64,000 nucleotides of DNA, taken from Thiorhodovibrio litoralis (GTDB lineage Bacteria; Pseudomonadota; Gammaproteobacteria; Chromatiales; Chromatiaceae). Of the stretch, positions 3,136 through 29,954 are shown piece after piece; position 1 is the first letter of the stretch, and every line of letters starts with the position of its first letter. The position numbers and the translations under genes were made by a program. The notes under the pieces were generated by a model. It saw only the letters and a program-made list of their open reading frames with translations. It searched no databases and was not told where the DNA came from. The stretch covers positions 4,512,501 through 4,576,500 of the forward strand of contig NZ_CP121473.1 in assembly GCF_033954455.1 (NCBI RefSeq), read 5' to 3'.

Positions 3136-3986
3136 CAGGCGCCCGCCCTGGCACTCGGGCGTTGGCGGGCGTTGCCCGCCGCTGAACCAAACACCTCAAG
3201 GTAGAGTTGTTCATCGAGCTGCGCGCGTTCGAGCCGAGCAGCCTGCGCCAGCAATTCTGCCGCCATGGTCGTGAGCACGCGATAATTGCCCAACGCATGC
3301 TCAGCGAGCGTCTTCATCAGCCCTGCGCTCATCAGACTCGCATTGCCGGCACTGTGTTGTAAATGCTCCAGGCAGGCGACCAGCGCCTCGCGACTGGCAT
3401 ACTCCATACTCAGGCGCGTACGGATACGACTGCCCAGCGGCAGCAACTCCTCACGGCGCAGCTTGGTCGCCAGGCGGCCATCGCCGGCCAGGATCACGCT
3501 CAACAACGTGCGCGAATCGAACTGCATGGAGGTCAGCAGACGCAGCTCATTGAGCACCGTCGGATGCATCTCCTGCGCCTCGTCGATGAGCAACACCGGG
3601 CGCAACAGCGTCGTCTCCAGATGCGCCAGCCAGCGCTCGCGCAGGATCTTGAAGCCACCCCAGCGGTTATGGGGCTTGAGGTCAACGGCGAACAGATCGC
3701 CCATCTCGCGGTAGAAGTCCGCCACCTTCGAGCTGGGATGCGTGAGCGCCCCAACGCTGATATCGGGCAGCTGGCGCAGACGCTCATCGAGCAGGCGCAG
3801 TACCGCACTCTTGCCGGTACCCGGATCACCTTGAATGAGCGCAAAACCGCCTTCGCGGATCAGGCTCTGCTCGATGCGCCAGCAAAACTGCTCCACCGGC
3901 GCGCTGCGATGCAGTGCCGCCGTCGGCAGCTCCGGGGAGAACGGATTGAACTTCAGTCCATAGAGGGCCAGCAGGGTCTTGTTCAT
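3135..3986 (-). CDS. ExeA/TniB-like AAA ATPase, transposition regulator
   Basis: A 283-residue AAA+ ATPase with Walker A GDPGTGKSA near residues 53-61, Walker B LLIDEAQEM near 132-140, and an arginine-finger-like RIRTRL near 187. The N-terminus (LYGLKFNPFSP) is typical of ExeA-family ATPases, which accompany DDE transposases and resemble MuB, TniB and TnsC in choosing target DNA. It overlaps the transposase by four bases (3983-3986) and the primase by one, so the three form one translational unit. A role in target capture or target immunity is inferred from family and position. Confidence 0.85.
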   Translation of the reverse strand: MNKTLLALYGLKFNPFSPELPTAALHRSAPVEQFCWRIEQSLIREGGFALIQGDPGTGKSAVLRLLDERLRQLPDISVGALTHPSSKVADFYREMGDLFAVDLKPHNRWGGFKILRERWLAHLETTLLRPVLLIDEAQEMHPTVLNELRLLTSMQFDSRTLLSVILAGDGRLATKLRREELLPLGSRIRTRLSMEYASREALVACLEHLQHSAGNASLMSAGLMKTLAEHALGNYRVLTTMAAELLAQAARLERAQLDEQLYLEVFGSAAGNARQRPSARAGA

Positions 3987-5440
3987 CGACTGGATTCCAG
4001 GTCATCGTGTTTTGGCAGATAGGCCGGCGGCAGACCGGTGGCGGCATACTCGGCGAGCAAGTCGCGCAGCAACGGTGGCAGCGTCGTGGCGCGTTGTGAT
4101 GGCGGTGGCGGTGCGCCGGCGGGCTCAAGGCGCCGACGCTGCCCGGAGGCATTGGCGGCTTTATCGAGGGGATAGAGGCGGCAGAGGATGGCGCCCGAGT
4201 GGGGATCAACCACGTCCACAGCACTCAGATCCCAGCGGGCATAAGCGATATGCAGTTGCTCAAGGTGACGCAAGCGCGCCGGCACCTCGAAGCGCTTGCC
4301 CGCCAGGCTGAGCGTCCCATCGCTGCGGCGCTGACGGCGTTGGACGCGACAACGAAAAGCGGCGCGGACCTGCTCGCTGTCCGGACAGGGGCGCCCCACG
4401 TTGGGCGCATCGAGAAGACGCGCAAGCGGCGTGGCGGCGGTCTCACTGTGGACCTTGCGGTGGTACTCCTGCTCCACCCACGCCTGAGTGAGGGTGTTGA
4501 GCCGCTGCAGGCTCAGCTCCTCCAGCCCCTTAAGCATCGCCATCAGGCGGCCTTCCAGCGTGGCCCAGAAGCGCTCCTGCTTGGCGTTCTGATACGGGCT
4601 GTACGGCAGGGTCGGCTCGTGGAGGATGCCCAGCGCATGCAATCCGGCGGTGAATTCCTCGGCCTGCATTGCCGCGCCGTTATCGCTCATCAGGGCGCGC
4701 GGCAGCCCGCGCTTGTGCAACGCCTGTCCCAGACCATGCACCAAGGTCTCGGTGGTCTCATCGAGGTACCACTGCAGATGGCAGATCAGGCGCGAGTGAT
4801 CGTCGATGACCGCCAGCAGCAGGGGCTTGACCCAGACGCCACCCCGGGTGAGGACGTTGCGCGAGCCATGATGAAAGTCCAGATGCCACAAGGCATGGAC
4901 ATACTGGGCTTCATAGCTGCGCACCTCGCAGGCCTCCAGGCGCCGCGCGGCCTGCTCGGCCCCGGGTGTCTTGCGCGCCGGGACACGCCGGCGGTGCAGG
5001 CCCGCGCGCTTCATGAAGCGGCGCACGGTGGCATAGGAGGGCAGCGGCCCCAGGGTTTCATCGCCCGCGCACAAGGCGGCGAGGTTGTCGTAATGCAGCT
5101 GCACCGTCCAACCGGGGTAGTCGCGGTATTGCGCCTGTACGGCCTCCATCAGGCGCGGGCTCAGCGCGCGCTGCTCCCCGGCATCGCTGCGCCGGCGCGG
5201 GCGCAGTGCGGTCACCGGGTCTTGGGCATCGCGTGCGAGGTAATACCAGCGCTCCAAGGTCCCAAAGCTAAAACTGACCGCCCGCCCAGTCACCGGATGA
5301 CGCCATGACTTGGCCGCCAGCGCCTTCAGCCGCGCGCCCAGCGCGTTCGCCGGCGCAGGATCAGCCAATAAAGGACCAATAATGGCAAAGCGCAACCGCG
5401 CCCAACCATCGGGATCACCGAGGCCGTTGTCATCGGACAT
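3983..5440 (-). CDS. DDE transposase (rve/Mu-type integrase core)
   Basis: The 485-residue protein has an N-terminal helical DNA-binding region and a retroviral-integrase-like core. Candidate catalytic acids are Asp in WHLDFH (about residue 190), Asp in SDNGAAM (about 255) and Glu in QNAKQERFW (about 290). The C-terminal part (SLAGKRFEVPARL region) resembles the Mu transposase C-terminal beta domain. It is the transposase for the surrounding element and is co-translated with the ATPase. Family resemblance is to IS481/Mu-like DDE enzymes. The start at 5440 follows a GGTGA-type ribosome site. Confidence 0.88.
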   Translation of the reverse strand: MSDDNGLGDPDGWARLRFAIIGPLLADPAPANALGARLKALAAKSWRHPVTGRAVSFSFGTLERWYYLARDAQDPVTALRPRRRSDAGEQRALSPRLMEAVQAQYRDYPGWTVQLHYDNLAALCAGDETLGPLPSYATVRRFMKRAGLHRRRVPARKTPGAEQAARRLEACEVRSYEAQYVHALWHLDFHHGSRNVLTRGGVWVKPLLLAVIDDHSRLICHLQWYLDETTETLVHGLGQALHKRGLPRALMSDNGAAMQAEEFTAGLHALGILHEPTLPYSPYQNAKQERFWATLEGRLMAMLKGLEELSLQRLNTLTQAWVEQEYHRKVHSETAATPLARLLDAPNVGRPCPDSEQVRAAFRCRVQRRQRRSDGTLSLAGKRFEVPARLRHLEQLHIAYARWDLSAVDVVDPHSGAILCRLYPLDKAANASGQRRRLEPAGAPPPPSQRATTLPPLLRDLLAEYAATGLPPAYLPKHDDLESSR

Positions 5441-18380: not shown

Positions 18381-18594
18381 ACAAGCCGTCCATGTAGCTG
18401 TTACAGGGAGTAAAAATCAACGCCCGCAACCTCGACCGAGAGCAAGTCGCCGAGGCCAGACCACCGGCCCTCAGTCATTGATGAAGACCATTCGCGATTA
18501 CACGAAACCATAATCCGCGGCTTACGCAGCCAGGCTCGGGGTCGGCGCAGCCAGTGCGCTAATAGCCGGTCAAGGCCTTTTTCGGAGGTAATTG

Positions 18595-20016
18595 ATGCAG
18601 ACTCCAGTCGCACCTCCTCTCCGCGCTGAGTCCAGCGGAGGCTCGAAAACCCGGGGACCCCAGGCGAATGTCTGCCGCGCCCCCAGTTCGCCCTGCCCCC
18701 TGCTCGCGACCGGCTTCGTGATTCTGTTTTTGCTCCTCTTCGTCGAGGTGGCGCTTAGCCTGTCGCAAATGCATAAGATGCAGGAGCGATTGGCGCAGGT
18801 GGTTGAAGAGTACAGCGCCCGCGGTGCGCTGGCGCAGGAAATGCACCAGAGCTCCCGCGAGCGGGCGATCCTTCTCCACGCCATGATTTCCACCGATGAT
18901 CCGTTCGAGCGCGATGATCTGCTTGTCGATTTACGCGCCCTCGGCTCCCGGTTCCTCAAGGCGCGCGAGCAGATTGCAGCCATGACACTGAGCAAAGATG
19001 AACGCGACTTGCTGCAGCAACAGCGTGAGCTTTCGCGCGCCGCCGGCGCCCTGCAATATCAGGTGATCGACCTCCTTGCCCAGGACCAGCTTGCGGAAGC
19101 GAAACGCGTCTTGCTGCACCAGGCGATTCCTGCTCAAGAGCGCGCGCTAGCCGTGGTGCAGAATTTCGCCGCCTTGCAGCAATCCCAGAATCGCGCGGCC
19201 CTGGCGGCGACATCCGAGGAGTTTCACCAGGCCGACCATTTGTTGCTGATCATTGGCGGCGTGACTCTGCTGCTGAGCGCTTTGGTGGCCGGCTTCGTGC
19301 TGCATCGAACCAACGCCATGATGGCCGCGTTAACGCACTCGAACGCCGAATTGCTCGATGCCCGCGAACGTCTGGAAGAGCGGGTGGCGGAGCGCACCGC
19401 GGATCTGCGCCGAGTCAACGAAAAGCTGCTAGACGAGGTCAACGAGCGCAAACGTGCCGAGCGCCAATTGGCCTTCATGGCAACCCACGATGATCTCACC
19501 GAACTCCCCAACCGCGCGCTCTTCAACGACCACCTGGCAAAGAGCATCGCCCGCGCGCGGCGAGCGGGAACGCGTCTGGCGCTCTTGTTCGTCGACCTTG
19601 ACGGATTCAAGCAGATCAACGACAGCCATGGCCACGCGGACGGCGATCACGTGCTACGCGAAGTTGCCTGCCGGCTTAAGTCCCGTGGCCGGGAGCAAGA
19701 TCTGGTCGCGCGTCTCGGCGGTGACGAGTTCGCGTTGATTCTCGAGCACATCTACCAACCGGCCGACGCGGGCGCAGTGGCGCGCAAGGTTATCGAAGCC
19801 GTCTCGGAGCCCATCACAGTGGCCGAAACCAAGCATCAGGTCGGCGCCAGTATCGGCATCGCTCTCTTCCCCGACGACGCCAAGAACCTCAATGAGCTGG
19901 TCCGACTCGCGGACAATGCCATGTACTGCGTCAAGCGCTCAGGCAAAGGCAACTACAGATACCATCAGGCACCGCGATTGGCATCGGCTGCCGAGGCGCT
20001 GCCTTTTCAGTGGTGA
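18595..20016 (+). CDS. Membrane-bound diguanylate cyclase (GGDEF)
   Basis: A 473-residue protein that should make cyclic di-GMP. A transmembrane helix near residues 36-60 and a second near 215-235 enclose a periplasmic helical sensor domain of about 150 residues. A coiled coil precedes the GGDEF domain (about 300-460). The active-site RLGGDEF is intact, and RxxD five residues before it is the product-inhibition (I) site. The sensor is helical and resembles four-helix-bundle input domains. The ATG at 18595 has GGAGG six bases upstream. It stands alone; the signal is unknown. Confidence 0.9.
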   Translation: MQTPVAPPLRAESSGGSKTRGPQANVCRAPSSPCPLLATGFVILFLLLFVEVALSLSQMHKMQERLAQVVEEYSARGALAQEMHQSSRERAILLHAMISTDDPFERDDLLVDLRALGSRFLKAREQIAAMTLSKDERDLLQQQRELSRAAGALQYQVIDLLAQDQLAEAKRVLLHQAIPAQERALAVVQNFAALQQSQNRAALAATSEEFHQADHLLLIIGGVTLLLSALVAGFVLHRTNAMMAALTHSNAELLDARERLEERVAERTADLRRVNEKLLDEVNERKRAERQLAFMATHDDLTELPNRALFNDHLAKSIARARRAGTRLALLFVDLDGFKQINDSHGHADGDHVLREVACRLKSRGREQDLVARLGGDEFALILEHIYQPADAGAVARKVIEAVSEPITVAETKHQVGASIGIALFPDDAKNLNELVRLADNAMYCVKRSGKGNYRYHQAPRLASAAEALPFQW

Positions 20017-21769: not shown

Positions 21770-22027
21770 ATGGATGCCATCAGCTACACCGCCGCGCGGG
21801 CGAATCTCGCAAAAACCATGGAGCAGGTCTGTCGCGACCATGCGCCGGTGGTTATTACTCGCAAGCGTGAGTCGCCTGTCGTCATGCTGTCACTCGAGGA
21901 TTATCAGGCGATGGAGGAAACAGCCTACCTGTTGCGTGCGCCAGCTAACGCAAGGCGCCTGTTGGAATCCATTGCCGAGCTGGAGGCTGGGCATGGTCTG
22001 GAACGGGATATGGTTGAGTGCAACTGA
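21770..22027 (+). CDS. yefM: Antitoxin YefM (Phd/YefM family)
   Basis: An 85-residue antitoxin that neutralises YoeB and represses the operon. It starts MDAISYTAARANLAKTMEQVC and contains VVITRKRESPVVMLSLEDYQAMEET, the typical Phd/YefM N-terminal fold; the C-terminal helix binds the toxin. GGAGG precedes the ATG. It overlaps yoeB by ten bases, so the two are coupled. The pair sits between two direct repeats and decayed genes, which suits a mobile or addictive locus. Confidence 0.93.
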   Translation: MDAISYTAARANLAKTMEQVCRDHAPVVITRKRESPVVMLSLEDYQAMEETAYLLRAPANARRLLESIAELEAGHGLERDMVECN

Positions 22028-22278
22028 TTTTCTCCAGTCGCGCCTGGGAGGATTATGTGTACTGGCAAAAGACCGACAAGGCCGTCCTGAAACGCATCAA
22101 CGCACTGATCGCGGAAGTCAAACGAACGCCTTTCGAGGGCACGGGAAAACCGGAACGCTTGCGACACGGCTTGTGCGGCTACTGGTCCCGGCGTATCACC
22201 GGTGAGCATCGAATAGTTTACAAGGCGCTGGATGACGCTATTTTGATTGCACAACTTCGTTATCACTACGAACCCTGA
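22018..22278 (+). CDS. yoeB: Toxin YoeB, ribosome-dependent mRNA interferase
   Basis: An 86-residue RelE-superfamily toxin that cleaves mRNA in the ribosome. Motifs are FSSRAWEDYVYWQKTD at the start, GKPERLRHGLCGYWSRRI, GEHRIVY, and the C-terminal LRYHYEP, with the active-site Glu, Arg, His and Tyr of YoeB. It begins at GTG 22018 inside yefM. The sequence appears intact. Confidence 0.93.
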   Translation: MQLIFSSRAWEDYVYWQKTDKAVLKRINALIAEVKRTPFEGTGKPERLRHGLCGYWSRRITGEHRIVYKALDDAILIAQLRYHYEP

Positions 22279-24025: not shown

Positions 24026-24889
24026 ATGCTGCGCATATTAGATATGAAGCCAATCATTAGCCAGATCGGACAAAACCCAATGACGTCCGCCTTAAACCAA
24101 ATTCAACTTGAAACGCTTCGCGATTTTTACCACATCTTCCCAGAATCCCAAAGCACGCTTATTGGTGCCGTCGCATTAGGGTTTTATTTGGAGGTGTCTT
24201 GGCGCAAAACAGCCGATATAGACCTTGTTGTTGCGCTGGACCAAAATGAAGTTTTGACTGCGCTCTCGCAGTACTCTGATTGGACAAGGCATCCAAGGCA
24301 TGCGTATCGATTTCAGTCGCCACAAGGCCCTTTCTTGAATATTATTCCCGCCGGGCAGGAGTTCTCGGAAAAAGGAATGGTTGAGCTGGAAAACGGTCAG
24401 ACCATGAACTTCGCTGGGATTGATTTGGCATTGACCCACTCCGTGGCGCATAAGGCTCTGAATTCTCTTGAAGTCAAGGTTTCGCCTCCTTCCTGTATTG
24501 CAGTTCTAAAGATGGAGTCTTTTTTAATTCGCCCCTATGAAAGACTTCGCGATCTACAAGATATTGCCCAACTGCTTGATGTTTATATCGATGATACATC
24601 CAATCGCTTTTGGGATGTGGGCGTGGAACATATCGGGAATTTCGATTTGGTTCCAGCTTATCTTCTGGGGCAAGATATCGGTAAAATAGTAACCGAGAGA
24701 CACGTCCAGACACTTCAAGATTTTTTTCAAACGCTGATCGATCCTGAATCTGTGCATCATGCATGGATGGAGAGGCATGGGCCCTCCCATTGGAGTGCCG
24801 AAAAAGAGCCGCTTCTCGAAAGGTTAAAGGTGTTGGGTAAAGGTATTGAATATAGTCTTGGCACAAACATACTTGATGGGGAAACTTAA
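24026..24889 (+). CDS. Nucleotidyltransferase-like protein (AbiEii-type fold)
   Basis: A protein of up to 287 residues, in visibly AT-richer DNA. It contains GAVALGFYLEVSWRKTADIDLVVAL near residues 47-71, the 'G-[GS]x9-D[LI]D[LV]' block of minimal nucleotidyltransferases (AbiEii/toxin family). Many such proteins act in abortive infection, but others do not. It starts at 24026 or at ATG 24044 or 24080; no clear ribosome site decides. About 50 bases downstream begins the Roadblock-amidoligase cassette on the same strand, so it could be a member of, or simply a neighbour to, that system. Confidence 0.6.
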   Translation: MLRILDMKPIISQIGQNPMTSALNQIQLETLRDFYHIFPESQSTLIGAVALGFYLEVSWRKTADIDLVVALDQNEVLTALSQYSDWTRHPRHAYRFQSPQGPFLNIIPAGQEFSEKGMVELENGQTMNFAGIDLALTHSVAHKALNSLEVKVSPPSCIAVLKMESFLIRPYERLRDLQDIAQLLDVYIDDTSNRFWDVGVEHIGNFDLVPAYLLGQDIGKIVTERHVQTLQDFFQTLIDPESVHHAWMERHGPSHWSAEKEPLLERLKVLGKGIEYSLGTNILDGET

Positions 24890-24941
24890 ATACGGGAGAG
24901 GCAGCCCGTTCAACTCGAGATGATTACAAAACGGAGGCAAA

Positions 24942-25301
24942 ATGGGAATTCCAAAAGATATTTTAAACTCCCTCAACGGCGATGTTGAGGGGTTGCAGAC
25001 GGCCGCGCTCTTTAGTTCGGACGGTCTCCCACTATTGATCAACAACCCGGCCAATGCCGATGTGGAGTCGTTTTCGGCCAAGTTTGCCATGGTATCCAAA
25101 CTGGTTAGCAAGACCGTGACGTCACTCAATGGTGGTCGCACGGACGAGATCCTGGTGGAGCAGGACAAGGGCTGGATTCTCTTGCGGGCCGTTGGCAAGG
25201 CGGATTTGAATCTCATTATCAGTGTCACGCCCGATGCCACATTGGGGAATCTCAGAATGGTGGCCAAGAGACTGGTGGCGGACATAGCCGCGGCCGTTTG
25301 A
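24942..25301 (+). CDS. Roadblock/LC7-domain protein (MglB-like), cassette gene 1
   Basis: A 119-residue protein with the Roadblock/LC7 fold: N-terminal helix, then QTAALFSSDGLPLLINNP, and a second sheet segment DEILVEQDKGWILLRAVG followed by LNLIISVTPDA and a long helix. Roadblock proteins form dimers that bind and control small Ras-like GTPases (MglB-MglA) or build scaffolds. An ACGGAGG ribosome site precedes the ATG. It is the first of five same-strand genes to 28817. No GTPase gene is present in the window, so its partner is unknown. Confidence 0.85.
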   Translation: MGIPKDILNSLNGDVEGLQTAALFSSDGLPLLINNPANADVESFSAKFAMVSKLVSKTVTSLNGGRTDEILVEQDKGWILLRAVGKADLNLIISVTPDATLGNLRMVAKRLVADIAAAV

Positions 25302-25340
25302 GACGACATAATCTAAGACTATTTGAGTTGGAGGTGACCC

Positions 25341-25811
25341 ATGGCAAGTGAAGAGGAAAAGAAAAGACAATTGGTGCGCGTGCTTTCGTTGATGATCGAG
25401 GGTCTGGCGAAAGGAATCTATGACCTGTTCGACGATTCCGCCTTTGCCCTGATGAGGATAGTGGGCACCGACCTGCTGGAGATCATGCAGAAGGAGATGG
25501 GGCTCGAGATCGAAGGTGAAAACCCAACGGATGTGCTGAACGAATTACTCCGTATCTGGGTCGATGAGATCGGATTCTTTGATGATGCCACCGTAAAAGA
25601 GATTGAGAACGGATGGATGATCGAGGGAAATCGGTGCAAGGGCTGGAATCTGACGCAGAAGATTTTGGCCACAGGGGTCAAGCAGCCGTTCACCTGCCCG
25701 GTGATGAACACCATGAACGCTGCTCTTGCCAAGATGGACGTGAAGACGCACATGAACATCGAACCGATTCCCGAAACCCGAGGGACACGGTTTACGCTCA
25801 CCCGTGTCTAG
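25341..25811 (+). CDS. Small protein of unknown fold, cassette gene 2 (possible V4R-like)
   Basis: A 156-residue soluble protein with a GGAGGT ribosome site, 39 bases after gene 1. The first half is helical and acidic (LLEIMQKEMGLEIEGENPTDVLNEL). The C-terminal half has GNRCKGWNLTQKIL and PFTCPVMNTMNAAL and ends in a beta-rich RGTRFTLTRV. The Cys-Pro pair and last strand faintly resemble V4R/hydrocarbon-binding domains, so a ligand-sensing role is possible, but I cannot confirm any family. It is a candidate regulator or substrate carrier for the amidoligase. Confidence 0.5.
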   Translation: MASEEEKKRQLVRVLSLMIEGLAKGIYDLFDDSAFALMRIVGTDLLEIMQKEMGLEIEGENPTDVLNELLRIWVDEIGFFDDATVKEIENGWMIEGNRCKGWNLTQKILATGVKQPFTCPVMNTMNAALAKMDVKTHMNIEPIPETRGTRFTLTRV

Positions 25812-25974
25812 CCCGCTTTGCCGCGGTTCTCGTACCTGGTGGACTCGAGGAGAGCGCCGTGGCAATCGGGCCGGTCACGTGAGTGGCCGCGTGCGCGGCG
25901 GGTTATGAGGAGATGAGTTGCCGATACGACACGTTTGAGCATTCCGCGGATACTCGAAAATATAACGGTGAGGA

Positions 25975-27261
25975 ATGTCAGAGGAAATCTTTTTCTTCAG
26001 AAGAGAGGATACGCTCTCGCACGAGCAGGACCGATACTATCAGGATCTTTTCTATCGCGTATTGAAGATCGGTCCAGAACTGGAATGCGGACTGCCTGGC
26101 GGCATGCAGTCCAATGTATTCCGGGCTCATCTCGAAAAGCGACTCCGACCGTCACGGGACCTTGAGAATCTGGGAGAACTGGGCATTTTTGATGTGGTTA
26201 AGGAACACTGCGGGGTGGAAATGCAGGTCATCGGCCGGCATCCTCAATGGAACTCCCTCATGGAGCAGTACAGGCAGATCATCGATATCCTCTTGGAAGA
26301 GAAGATGCGCATGCGCCAGACCTGCGGCCTCCATTTCCATCTCATTGCCGTTGGGCTATCCGAGCGAATCCCGCAGATCATTCTGGCCAACCTCTGGAAC
26401 CTGGTGCGTAAACATGCGCCCGGATTAAAGTACCTGTTTAGCGGTGGAGATGTGTCCAGTGGCATGTGCCGCCGCCGACAGCACAATGCGCATCAGGAGT
26501 TCATGGAGCACGCTCCTGTACAAAAGGATATGCCGCAGATTCAAGCGCTCCTGAAACAAAGCCAGAAGGTACCCGAACATCAAAACTTCTTCAATCTTGA
26601 GCATATGGAATTCGATGAGGATGGTCGCATCAAGACTTTTCACCTCGAGATGCGGTTCCCCGACGGGGATCTCGTGCCGACGTCTATTGTGGCCAAGACC
26701 TTTCTCTTTCTGGCGTTGGTGTTGAAATCGGTGGAGCTATCCAAATACGGACTGATCCACACGGGCCGTAAGGGTTCCTGGGAACGGAAAAAGGAACTCC
26801 TGAACCGATTGAGCAATAATGACGGGGAATTGGCGCGAAGTGATACCTCCGGCATAGGTGACGAGGAGATCCGCGAACTAAGACAAGACGCCACAGACTT
26901 GTTGCTGTTTCTCAAGTCCATCTTCAACAAATTTACCAACCCGGCATATCCAGTACTAAAGCATCTGGCCGAACGACCGATCTCCGCTTATCGGATCGAG
27001 GGCTACGGGTGGAGAGATATTGAGCGGGACCTTCAAGGCCATGTTAACTATCCCATGTTCGTGGATGACGTGGATAAGGTGATCATCAAGCATATCGAGT
27101 TGGGACTGGCACGGGGACAGTCCTCACCGGATGATTGGCTTGGTTGCGTTTCCGCCAAATCGGGAGTGACCAAAACAGAGGTGAAGCAACGCATCGATCA
27201 GTATCTGGAAAGGTACCCGTCGTGGGATGGCGAGGAGGGGTCCTATGTGTTTGGAAGGTAG
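25975..27261 (+). CDS. Predicted amidoligase (COOH-NH2 ligase, GS-like fold), cassette gene 3
   Basis: A 428-residue protein that probably joins an amine or ammonia to a carboxylate with ATP. Diagnostic motifs of the amidoligase/glutamate-cysteine ligase-like superfamily are present in order: GPELECG (residues 33-39), CGLHFHL (117-123) and LEMRFPDGD (224-232), where the Glu and His residues bind metal and ATP and the Arg contacts phosphate. The C-terminal third is unique and may bind the substrate. It starts at ATG 25975 with GGTGAGG very close, 163 bases after gene 2. It lies directly before a class II glutamine amidotransferase, an association described for this family by Iyer, Aravind and colleagues. 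Substrate is unknown. Confidence 0.72.
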   Translation: MSEEIFFFRREDTLSHEQDRYYQDLFYRVLKIGPELECGLPGGMQSNVFRAHLEKRLRPSRDLENLGELGIFDVVKEHCGVEMQVIGRHPQWNSLMEQYRQIIDILLEEKMRMRQTCGLHFHLIAVGLSERIPQIILANLWNLVRKHAPGLKYLFSGGDVSSGMCRRRQHNAHQEFMEHAPVQKDMPQIQALLKQSQKVPEHQNFFNLEHMEFDEDGRIKTFHLEMRFPDGDLVPTSIVAKTFLFLALVLKSVELSKYGLIHTGRKGSWERKKELLNRLSNNDGELARSDTSGIGDEEIRELRQDATDLLLFLKSIFNKFTNPAYPVLKHLAERPISAYRIEGYGWRDIERDLQGHVNYPMFVDDVDKVIIKHIELGLARGQSSPDDWLGCVSAKSGVTKTEVKQRIDQYLERYPSWDGEEGSYVFGR

Positions 27262-27374
27262 GATGTCAGATTTGATGGGCATGTGGTGGCTTGGTTACCA
27301 CTTTGGCCTGAAGAAGTAGCGCTGGCTCAGGCTCGAGCGAGATTGATTGAAGTGGATAGGGGTGGGGCGAAATC

Positions 27375-28181
27375 GTGTGTGGATTGATGGGGATCCAGTT
27401 GGGTCGACGATTGACATGCGCCGAGCACCAACGGGTCAAGGAACTCTTCACAGGGGTGTTGCTGGCGAACGAGGAACGGGGCCGTGAGGCCACGGGCGTG
27501 GCTGCATTCTGGCCGGACGGAAGCCACAACATTTTGAAACTGCCGGTATGTGCGAGTGAGTTCGTCGCTTCCCAGGAATTCGCGGATTTCATGAATTCAT
27601 GGGACCTCTCAACCTGCACGTTACTGGGACACACACGGAAACCCACCAAGGGCTCCGTCTGGAATCCCGACAACAATCAACCGATTCGGGTTGGGCAGAC
27701 GGTGGGAATCCATAACGGCACCATACACAATGACAACTTCTTATTTGATACCCAGAACCTTGAGCGCAAGGCTGAGGTGGATAGTGAAATCATCTTCTCC
27801 ATGCTAAACACCATTGAGGATATCTCTCGCATGGACTCGGAGACGATCAGCGCCATTCAACGCGTTTCCAGAGAGCTTACCGGATATTTCACCACTCTTT
27901 CCGTGCAACTGGAAAAGCCCCATCAGGTGTTGGTAATGAAATATAACAACCCTGTTTCATTTCATTATAGCCGTTCATTGCAGGCCTATTTTTTTTCCTC
28001 GAGATATGTGTTCCTGCGAAAGGCGTTTGGTCGGCAGGTGGTAACGGAGGCACTGGAAAGCAAGACTGGTTATCTGTTCGACGCCATGCGTCAGGAAGAG
28101 CCCGTGGGGAGACCCCACGTCCACTTTCCCTTGCAATCAACATCAGATTGCTGTTGTTGCATGGAAACCACCGGTTTTTGA
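27375..28181 (+). CDS. Class II glutamine amidotransferase domain protein, cassette gene 4
   Basis: A 268-residue N-terminal-nucleophile hydrolase that should release ammonia from glutamine. It starts GTG at 27375 so that Cys2 (MCGLMG) is the nucleophile after Met removal, with a G-rich ribosome site ahead. Further family marks are LLGHTRKPTKGSVWN (about residues 77-91), VGIHNGTIHN (about 110-119) and a VDSEIIF near 135. It has no fused synthase domain, so it likely supplies ammonia to a separate partner, most plausibly the amidoligase next door. The C-terminal tail is Cys-rich (CCCCME). Together these imply glutamine-dependent amidation. Confidence 0.82.
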   Translation: MCGLMGIQLGRRLTCAEHQRVKELFTGVLLANEERGREATGVAAFWPDGSHNILKLPVCASEFVASQEFADFMNSWDLSTCTLLGHTRKPTKGSVWNPDNNQPIRVGQTVGIHNGTIHNDNFLFDTQNLERKAEVDSEIIFSMLNTIEDISRMDSETISAIQRVSRELTGYFTTLSVQLEKPHQVLVMKYNNPVSFHYSRSLQAYFFSSRYVFLRKAFGRQVVTEALESKTGYLFDAMRQEEPVGRPHVHFPLQSTSDCCCCMETTGF

Positions 28182-28337
28182 GAAATGTGTCTTCAACCAC
28201 CCTGACGCTTCGCTTTTGGGTAGTTCTTGAATCTTCATCCCGTAACGGAGAAATGCCTTGGCACGCCCAAGGTGCGGCTCGCTGCCGATATATTCCGGTT
28301 TGCGGATACTAGAGCGATCCGGATGCTTGTCGTTCAT
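28143..28337 (-). CDS. Short minus-strand reading frame in the cassette (doubtful)
   Basis: A 64-residue frame (MNDKHPDRSSIRKPEYIGSE at its start, then HLGRAKAFLRYGMKIQELP) overlaps the 3' end of the amidotransferase gene by 39 bases and fills the 195-base gap before gene 5. Composition is protein-like, but no ribosome site is seen and no family is recognised. It could be a small real gene, a remnant of an inserted element, or chance. Listed because the gap is otherwise empty. Confidence 0.22.
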   Translation of the reverse strand: MNDKHPDRSSIRKPEYIGSEPHLGRAKAFLRYGMKIQELPKSEASGWLKTHFSKTGGFHATTAI

Positions 28338-28376
28338 GGAGGTTTTTAGAATCCATCGATTAAGAAGGGGATAGAT

Positions 28377-28817
28377 ATGAGCGAAAATGAGAATAATAAA
28401 GATCGGCGTATAGATCGGTCTGCAATTCCCCTGATCGCCGTTAGAAAACAGCTGGAACGAATAGTGAAAGATGGGAATCTGAAGGCAGCTGTACTGGCCA
28501 GCAGCGACGGTTTAACTCTTGTTGCTCCAGTTAACGATGATCAGTCCGAGGCGATTTCGGCGCTTGCGGGGTATTTAAACAAAGCAAAATCATTGATTGA
28601 GAAGAATCTGCTTAATACCGCAGCAACGGATATCACTTTCACGGGACAAGATGGTACAACTTTTCATTGCCGATATCTTGAACTTTTTGATGAATTAGTA
28701 ACTCTAGCCGTTATTACCAAAGGGGCTGCACCATCGGGGGAAATCCTGAGCCGTGCCATGAGTGGGATCATGCGTATCATGCGGAAGCACGATCAGCTTT
28801 CTACTAGGCACGGATGA
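28377..28817 (+). CDS. Roadblock/LC7-domain protein, cassette gene 5
   Basis: A 146-residue protein: an Asn/Lys/Asp-rich first 15 residues, then IPLIAVRKQLERIVKDGNLKAAVLASSDGLTLVAPV, a classical Roadblock start, followed by the helix and strand pattern of the fold (DITFTGQDGTTFHCRYLELF, LVTLAVITKG). It differs clearly from gene 1, so the two could form a heterodimer. A GGGG ribosome site precedes ATG 28377. It closes the same-strand run. Roadblock proteins are partners of small GTPases; none is encoded here. Confidence 0.85.
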   Translation: MSENENNKDRRIDRSAIPLIAVRKQLERIVKDGNLKAAVLASSDGLTLVAPVNDDQSEAISALAGYLNKAKSLIEKNLLNTAATDITFTGQDGTTFHCRYLELFDELVTLAVITKGAAPSGEILSRAMSGIMRIMRKHDQLSTRHG

Positions 28818-29018
28818 CGATACAGGCGGTGCCTGATTGGGGTGAGGCTACCACGGCCAAGCCAGCGGCGAACCCTCGCTTCCCGGCGCACGATCTCTGG
28901 GTCATACTGACGTCTAGCCGCTCGCGCGACCATACTCGCTCAGAGACCCATATACCGAATGCGCGCGGATCATTCCGTTTCCCGCGGTATGGGGTCTTGA
29001 AGCCAGAATACAGGGAAC

Positions 29019-29954
29019 ATGGCCGTCACAAAAATAGAATTGGGTGCAATCCTAGAGGAACACGCTCTTTGGCTCGGCAGAAAGGGCGGGAGTAGGGCTA
29101 GCCTTAACGGCGCCGACCTTCGCGATGCCGACCTTCGCAAAGCCGACCTTCGCAACGCTGACCTTCGTGGAGCAAACCTTGATGGCACCACCGTTCAAGG
29201 TGCAAAGCTTGACGGTGCCGATCTGTACGGCGCCGACCTTCGCGGCGCCGACCTTGGTGGAGCAAAGCTGCACGGTGCCGACCTTTACGGTGCCGACCTT
29301 CAGGGTGCCGATCTTCACGGCGTTGACCTTCGCAGCGCGGATCTTCAGGCCGCTGACCTTCGCAGCGCCGGTCTTTGCGAAGCGAACCTTCGCGGAGCCA
29401 ACCTTCGCAGCGCCGACCTTCGCGGAGCCGACCTTGAGGGCGCCAACCTTCACGACGCCGACCTTTACGGTGCCGATCTTTACGGCGCCGACCTTCGCGG
29501 GGCCGATCTTTACGGCGCGGACCTCTACGGCGCCGACCTTCGGGAAGCCAAGCTTCGCGGCGCCGACCTCTACGGCGCCTACCTTGCCGGTGCCGACCTT
29601 CACGACGCAGATCTTCACGGCACCAACTTACCAGACTTTGCAATCTGCCCGGAAGAAGGGGGGTTTATTGGTTGGAAGTACGCGGATGGCGCGATCCTTG
29701 AGTTATACATCCCGGAGGATGCGGTTCGCGCGTGCTCGTTAGTAGGACGGAAATGCAGGGCAACGCACGTTGTGACGCGCGCGGTCAGTAGTGGACCAAA
29801 AAAACCGGCCTACAGGACGCGAAAAGGTACGCGATACATCGTCGGAAAGGAAACTTGGGCGGATGCTTGGAATGATGATCCGCGTATTGAATGCACGAGC
29901 GGCATTCATTTCTTTATGACTCGGAAAGAAGCCGAGGAGTATGGCACGCGCTAG
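29019..29954 (+). CDS. Pentapeptide-repeat protein with conserved C-terminal domain
   Basis: A 311-residue protein. Residues about 28-205 are some 35 pentapeptides of the A(D/N)LxG type, which fold into a right-handed square beta-helix; such proteins can mimic DNA (gyrase protection, Qnr) or serve as scaffolds. The remaining 105 residues (FAICPEEGGFIGWKY through HFFMTRKEAEEYG) form a domain often fused to such repeats in proteins of unknown function (DUF5758-like). GGGA precedes the ATG by a few bases. The repeats make long GC-rich shadow frames on both strands, which are not genes. Confidence 0.85.
   Translation: MAVTKIELGAILEEHALWLGRKGGSRASLNGADLRDADLRKADLRNADLRGANLDGTTVQGAKLDGADLYGADLRGADLGGAKLHGADLYGADLQGADLHGVDLRSADLQAADLRSAGLCEANLRGANLRSADLRGADLEGANLHDADLYGADLYGADLRGADLYGADLYGADLREAKLRGADLYGAYLAGADLHDADLHGTNLPDFAICPEEGGFIGWKYADGAILELYIPEDAVRACSLVGRKCRATHVVTRAVSSGPKKPAYRTRKGTRYIVGKETWADAWNDDPRIECTSGIHFFMTRKEAEEYGTR

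Follow-up and report, generated by a model that had tools for sequence, protein, structure and literature searches.

A recurrent cassette of two Roadblock proteins, an amidoligase-like enzyme and a glutamine amidotransferase in Thiorhodovibrio litoralis and Desulfobacterota: a candidate module for signal-controlled amidation

Pairs of an amidoligase and a class II glutamine amidotransferase (GATase) are known mainly as predictions from phages and metabolite clusters, and to our knowledge few of their substrates have been identified; roles in metabolite synthesis were reportedly proposed for such pairs by Iyer et al. in 2009. Here we describe a related pair that lies between two Roadblock proteins in a stretch of 64,000 nucleotides from Thiorhodovibrio litoralis (NZ_CP121473.1, forward-strand positions 4,512,501 to 4,576,500; hereafter the window). 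The cassette consists of the genes for a Roadblock/LC7 protein (Rob1), a small protein (sm), an amidoligase-superfamily enzyme, a GATase and a divergent second Roadblock protein (Rob2). An earlier annotation made from the letters of the window (the original prediction) had reported five same-strand open reading frames (ORFs) in DNA of lower guanine-plus-cytosine (GC) content; all five lie where it had placed them, and the GC content is 51.8% in the cassette versus 62.5% in the window outside 24026-29954. We read the cassette as a signal-controlled, glutamine-dependent amidation module, and judge the chances of this reading to be about even. Literature searches found no account that joins amidoligase, Roadblock and glutamine amidotransferase, and no Roadblock-amidoligase system turned up.

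The complete gene set in the order Rob1-sm-amidoligase-GATase-Rob2 was identified in 10 of 15 carriers by an iterated profile census of the loci (window, L003, L072, L073, L075, L077, L079, L080, L083 and L084), and is thus not a chance arrangement. Recurrence of the five-gene order in other genomes had been set beforehand as the test on which the original prediction could fail. Among the incomplete loci, the contig of L082 ends just after the GATase gene, and L076 and L078 hold only a remnant of it. The 15 carriers are the window's genome, one sister species (G001) and 13 genomes in two classes, whose label as Desulfobacterota derives from four named records and shared class. The amidoligases of these 13 are 49-53% identical to that of the window.

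Among 190 close relatives, searches with the amidoligase detected it in two, namely the window's genome and G001; in 369 genomes of the window's class and 398 of its phylum, sets that overlap, the window's own genome was the single match each time. Since single-protein searches of kin found nothing beyond the genus, a DNA pattern was built from the amidoligase motifs C-G-x-H-x-H and E-x-R-F with their spacing. It matched 18 stretches in the genome_contigs set, four of which are relatives with partner genes alongside and amidoligases 49-54% identical (L037, a Desulfobulbaceae metagenome-assembled genome (MAG); L039, Desulfococcaceae bacterium HSG9; L048, a Desulfocapsa MAG; and L049, a Desulfobacterales MAG). 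The other 14 showed no tblastn similarity to the cassette proteins (10 contain stops, 4 do not). In the viral_contigs set the pattern matched five stretches, all of them in-frame CGxHxH...ExRF amidoligase-like proteins, and four scans of that set with back-translated peptides confirmed nothing. The 18 matches are no census because the pattern fixes one Cys codon and one Phe, and carriers found later by profile show that it misses members. A profile of six amidoligase sequences matched 11 of the 257 genomes in the class to which the L037 genome belongs (those of L037 and L048 among them) and in 2 of 321 genomes sampled from the class of the L039 genome, both already known.

Within the genus, all five genes of G001 are 97-100% identical to those of the window, and the flanking nucleotidyltransferase-like and pentapeptide genes 86%; a third genome of the genus (G002) gave no match to the cassette amidoligase. 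The window amidoligase had no tblastn match in plasmid or phage records, and neither the window sm nor the L039 amidoligase had one in plasmid records.

We infer that the genome with locus L072 (G944) is the cable bacterium Ca. Electrothrix scaldis GW3-3 (PMC10926707, available in part). The genomes G938-G944 are probably its kin, and six of the seven, all but G942, have the cassette, which is a concrete candidate regulatory system in a cable bacterium. Roadblock, amidoligase and amidotransferase are not mentioned in the available portion of the main text of a cable-bacterium genome paper (PMC12093952). In three loci a cysteine-rich protein of 113-116 residues is encoded after the last Roadblock gene (L072 4262-4612, L074 4376-4717 and L076 8845-9186); the L072 copy, the one scanned, belongs to no credible Pfam family.

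The third gene (25975..27261, plus strand) encodes 428 residues and holds the motifs GxExE-type at 33-37, TCGLHFH at 116-122, FNLEH at 206-210 and ExRFPDGDL at 225-233. The residues E35, E37, H120, H122, N207, E225 and R227 are invariant in 15 aligned relatives and cover all of the ligase motifs named in the original prediction (E35xE37, H120xH122 and E225xR227). The proposed amidoligase identity is further backed by profile comparison: against seven phage-type amidoligases, hhalign gave a probability of 96 and a score of 71.3 over 212 columns with the motifs aligned, compared with scores of at most 25.7 and probabilities of at most 2.7% for 30 column shuffles, 13.5-20.6 for four unrelated profile pairs and 91.3 for the positive control (canonical versus phage-type amidoligases). 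An earlier comparison with a profile of two near-identical sequences, against single or canonical sequences, had given nothing firm. PF12224 (Amidoligase_2, cut-off 22 bits) matched none of the 15 members at E up to 1, and their two other Pfam matches are at chance level (E 0.14, the best of the window protein, and 0.22). PDB sequences gave no match at E up to 5, and the profile did not match the canonical amidoligase family of related genomes, a member of which is also encoded in the window's own genome (C1:264579-265391). Judged by its sequence, the cassette enzyme is an undescribed family inside the amidoligase superfamily. G002 also encodes a divergent second amidoligase (L027 1348-2445) besides the canonical one.

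The fourth gene (27375..28181, plus strand; 268 residues) starts with GTG, followed by Cys2, and encodes the class II GATase. GATase_6 matches it with 37.1 bits (cut-off 27), C2 and the triad H113, N114 and G115 are invariant in the six sequences aligned, and the profile of these six matches GlmS and PurF chains in PDB (best E 5e-9); both Cys2 and the HNG triad had been recognised from the start. The protein thus resembles the glutaminases of GlmS and PurF in Cys2, HNG and the domain itself, but it stands alone, and its synthase partner would be the amidoligase. With tblastn, the GATase matched 247 phage records, all below 60% identity, and four plasmid records. The C-terminal end of the window GATase is unusual in carrying a run of four cysteines (SDCCCCMETTGF); the sister species has it too, and the four other copies in the alignment do not.

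Roadblock proteins stand at both ends of the cassette, as had been claimed, the first clear and the second weak. Rob1 (24942..25301, plus strand; 119 residues) is a stand-alone Roadblock/LC7 domain with a Robl_LC7 score of 30.5 bits (Pfam cut-off 23), and is 30-41% identical to the Roadblock tails of the 13 relatives outside the genus. Rob2 (28377..28817, plus strand; 146 residues) scores 21.2 bits (E 2.5e-4), under the cut-off; it reaches E 3e-25 with the iterated cassette Roadblock profile, a profile itself seeded with Rob1 and Rob2, and is 24-30% identical to other Rob2 proteins outside the genus.

The second gene (25341..25811, plus strand) encodes sm, a protein of 156 residues with invariant C99 and C119, found in 14 of the 15 cassettes and, outside the genus, 43-54% identical. 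Its structure was modelled with a predicted local distance difference test (pLDDT) score of 78.8. We could assign it to no family: searches of Pfam and NCBIfam gave scattered chance-level matches (best E 0.018 and 0.015, each in one member; window sm E 0.13 in Pfam), and archease was dismissed as its family at E 0.13 (Pfam) and 0.11 (PDB). The order of its helices and strands suggests, as no more than a guess, a V4R/Bet3-like fold; a V4R match was absent from Pfam results at E up to 10.

In the carriers outside the genus, Rob1 forms the C-terminal end of a longer protein, and seven of these 13 proteins were scanned with Pfam: DUF4388 is present in all seven, a receiver (REC) domain in five (L072, L075, L081, L082 and L083; not L079 or L080), and a Roadblock domain above the cut-off in four (L079, L080, L081 and L082), the Roadblock tail of L083 being visible only to the cassette profile. 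By homology, the window Rob1 is equivalent to the C-terminal domain of the (REC-)DUF4388-Roadblock protein of the Desulfobacterota carriers, and in our reading the window copy has lost its input domains. Five kinase-looking neighbours of the cassettes were scanned, and HATPase_c was detected in all five and HisKA in four (L072, L075, L078 and L084; not L080). Sigma-54 regulators are encoded beside L079 and L083.

From this anatomy (gene content, order and conservation in 15 genomes, enzyme superfamilies, domain fusion and adjoining kinase genes) a mechanism can be proposed. In the Desulfobacterota form, a histidine kinase would probably phosphorylate the REC-DUF4388-Roadblock protein, whose Roadblock tail (Rob1), together with sm, would relay its state to a catalytic module that comprises the amidoligase, the GATase and Rob2 and is presumably a complex. 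Within this module the GATase would hydrolyse glutamine and pass on the released ammonia. The amidoligase would use ATP to activate a carboxylate, and a protein, a peptide or a metabolite would be amidated as a result. Because the receiver and DUF4388 domains are absent in the window's host, Rob1 and sm may there respond to another input or be constitutively active. A more far-reaching version, which we offer tentatively and think rather doubtful, would be an undescribed kind of signal transduction in bacteria: a phosphorelay runs through the receiver-DUF4388-Roadblock protein and its dedicated two-cysteine partner and switches an amidoligase supplied with glutamine, and the enzyme places a reversible post-translational amide mark on some cell protein, perhaps one encoded by the cassette itself. 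Cable bacteria and other sulfur-cycling Desulfobacterota would use this system, and so would purple sulfur bacteria, which would have acquired it by horizontal transfer.

The same enzymes could instead make a metabolite, for instance an amidated peptide or signal, with the Roadblock proteins merely regulating or localising them. Genes for amidoligase, GATase and ATP-grasp adjoin in an Alcaligenes phage (gene names as deposited), which fits such a small-molecule pathway. However, no recurring transporter, ATP-grasp or tailoring enzyme was seen in the listed flanks (ORF beginnings, few of them scanned with Pfam), and the partners that do recur beside the cassette are signalling genes. We consider a metabolite pathway possible but on the unlikely side.

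Several observations weigh against signal-controlled, glutamine-dependent amidation. The link to two-component proteins and DUF4388 is visible only in the relatives: REC, DUF4388 and histidine kinase domains were found in none of the ten window neighbours scanned with Pfam. No kinase-like ORF was seen in the ORF listings of L039, L049 and L074, where no Pfam scan for it was made, and the scanned neighbours of L079 are the sigma-54 regulator, a chemoreceptor and a REC-HD protein. The window genes are separated by gaps of 39-195 bases, and promoter and terminator scans did no better than shuffles. In the census, L081 lacks a detectable Rob2 and L074 a detectable sm. The GATase remnants of L076 (7353-7646) and L078 (7901-8024) accompany amidoligases with intact motif residues, so the coupling to the GATase is not strict; this hints that the amidoligase in these carriers can use free ammonia or a different donor. 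Finally, the AlphaFold model of the amidoligase is of low confidence (pLDDT 60.6, predicted template modelling score 0.59; four other models pLDDT 38-41). Residues E35-E37, HxH and ExR sit on predicted strands in this model.

Sequence divergence bears on how the cassette has been held together. Between the window and G001 the Rob1 and Rob2 proteins are identical, and synonymous divergence (dS) is 0.01-0.05 for Rob1, sm, GATase and Rob2; that of the amidoligase is 0.23, like the flanks (0.21-0.23). An amidoligase diverged as much as the flanks, among four near-identical genes, suggests that the cassette within the genus is a recombinant patchwork. The ratio of nonsynonymous to synonymous divergence (dN/dS) of the amidoligase is 0.06-0.13 in the seven pairs with an estimable dS (not estimable for L083-L084 and L079-L080), which indicates purifying selection. 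Distance correlations among the five proteins are 0.64-0.96, values that would be raised by common ancestry in any case.

Rob1 and sm are the slowest genes in five of eight pairs (L076, L078 and L072, each versus L077; L083-L084; and L079-L080). All genes are nearly identical in L072-L073, and in L081-L082 Rob1 and sm have diverged more quickly than the enzymes. Between L074, which lacks sm, and L077, Rob1 has a dS of 3.8 and 68% identity versus 0.63 and 86% for the amidoligase. In our reading, L074 lost Rob1 together with sm, and an upstream paralogue has since taken the place of Rob1; relaxed constraint on the L074 Rob1 is less likely because its dN/dS stays low (0.04). The shared rate pattern and the L074 case led us to regard Rob1 and sm as a unit.

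A GTPase could offer another kind of control. The original prediction had suggested that a Roadblock heterodimer could bind a Ras-like GTPase encoded elsewhere; in the version of that model considered here, the Roadblock pair acts on an MglA-like GTPase, whose GTP state rather than phosphorylation would set amidation. PF08477 had no match in the window's genome, and an MglA-type query (E up to 0.001) matched neither that genome nor G001. The Roadblock proteins, the amidoligase-superfamily enzyme, the GATase and the recurrence of the gene set are thus supported, and the predicted GTPase found no support in this host. The other 13 carriers all encode an MglA-like GTPase, and L080 (G1097) has one together with a third Roadblock protein directly downstream of the cassette (3812-4915), the sole locus with an adjoining GTPase. 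In 12 of these 13 the GTPase gene and the cassette lie on different contigs or more than 700 kb apart. The GTPase is also widespread in one carrier class (202 of 257 genomes): all 11 carriers there have it, as do 191 of the 246 other genomes, and with no more than 11 carriers the two proportions are not distinguishable. On balance, control by a GTPase seems to us clearly unlikely. Weak PF08477 matches in two genomes were at one point taken for housekeeping GTPases, an assignment dropped when the MglA-type query showed them to be MglA-like.

The surroundings of the window cassette raise a last alternative. An AbiEii-like nucleotidyltransferase gene with 45.6% GC (24026-24889, same strand) ends 52 bases upstream of Rob1, and a YefM/YoeB type toxin-antitoxin pair is encoded at 21770-22278; together with the low GC of the cassette, these would fit a defence or conflict island in which, upon infection, some component of the phage or of the cell itself is modified by the cassette. 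We hold this to be very improbable: Rob1, the amidoligase, the GATase and Rob2 matched no PADLOC model at E up to 0.1 (sm had one weak match, E 0.011), the nucleotidyltransferase was found neither in nine relative loci (blastp) nor in four 8-kb loci (tblastn), and the scanned neighbours of the relatives' cassettes are mostly signalling genes. Directly downstream of the cassette is a gene for a long pentapeptide-repeat protein with a C-terminal DUF5758 (29019-29954), and the ten window neighbours scanned with Pfam include a diguanylate cyclase (18592-20016).

If signal-controlled amidation is the right reading, a conserved operon that places an amidoligase-GATase pair beside a kinase-linked Roadblock switch, probably in two phyla, would provide a defined case of regulated amidation. 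Thiorhodovibrio has cultured type strains, according to the available part of PMC10609205.

Among known systems, the actinobacterial conservons (cvn) resemble the cassette in being operons with histidine-kinase-like and MglB-type Roadblock proteins; they differ in their four core proteins, which include a GTPase and a DUF protein and, in the portion of PMC13343842 available to us, no amidoligase or GATase. The MglA/MglB/MglC/RomR module of Myxococcus xanthus likewise combines Roadblock and receiver-domain proteins (PMC12719032, PMC9481161 and PMC6785124, each available in part). Unlike that module, the cassette adds an amidoligase, a GATase and sm, its relatives have receiver and Roadblock domains on one chain with DUF4388, and no such GTPase turned up in the window's genome. 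On the enzymatic side, the Amidoligase_2/COOH-NH2 ligases of phages share with the cassette enzyme the GxExE-, HxH- and ExR-type motifs in the same order, and an adjoining GATase, as in the Alcaligenes phage and, by tblastn, viral contig L029. The cassette enzyme differs from them in having no PF12224 match, in its C-terminal approximately 170 residues beyond the matched part, and in its gene neighbours, which are Roadblock and two-component proteins.

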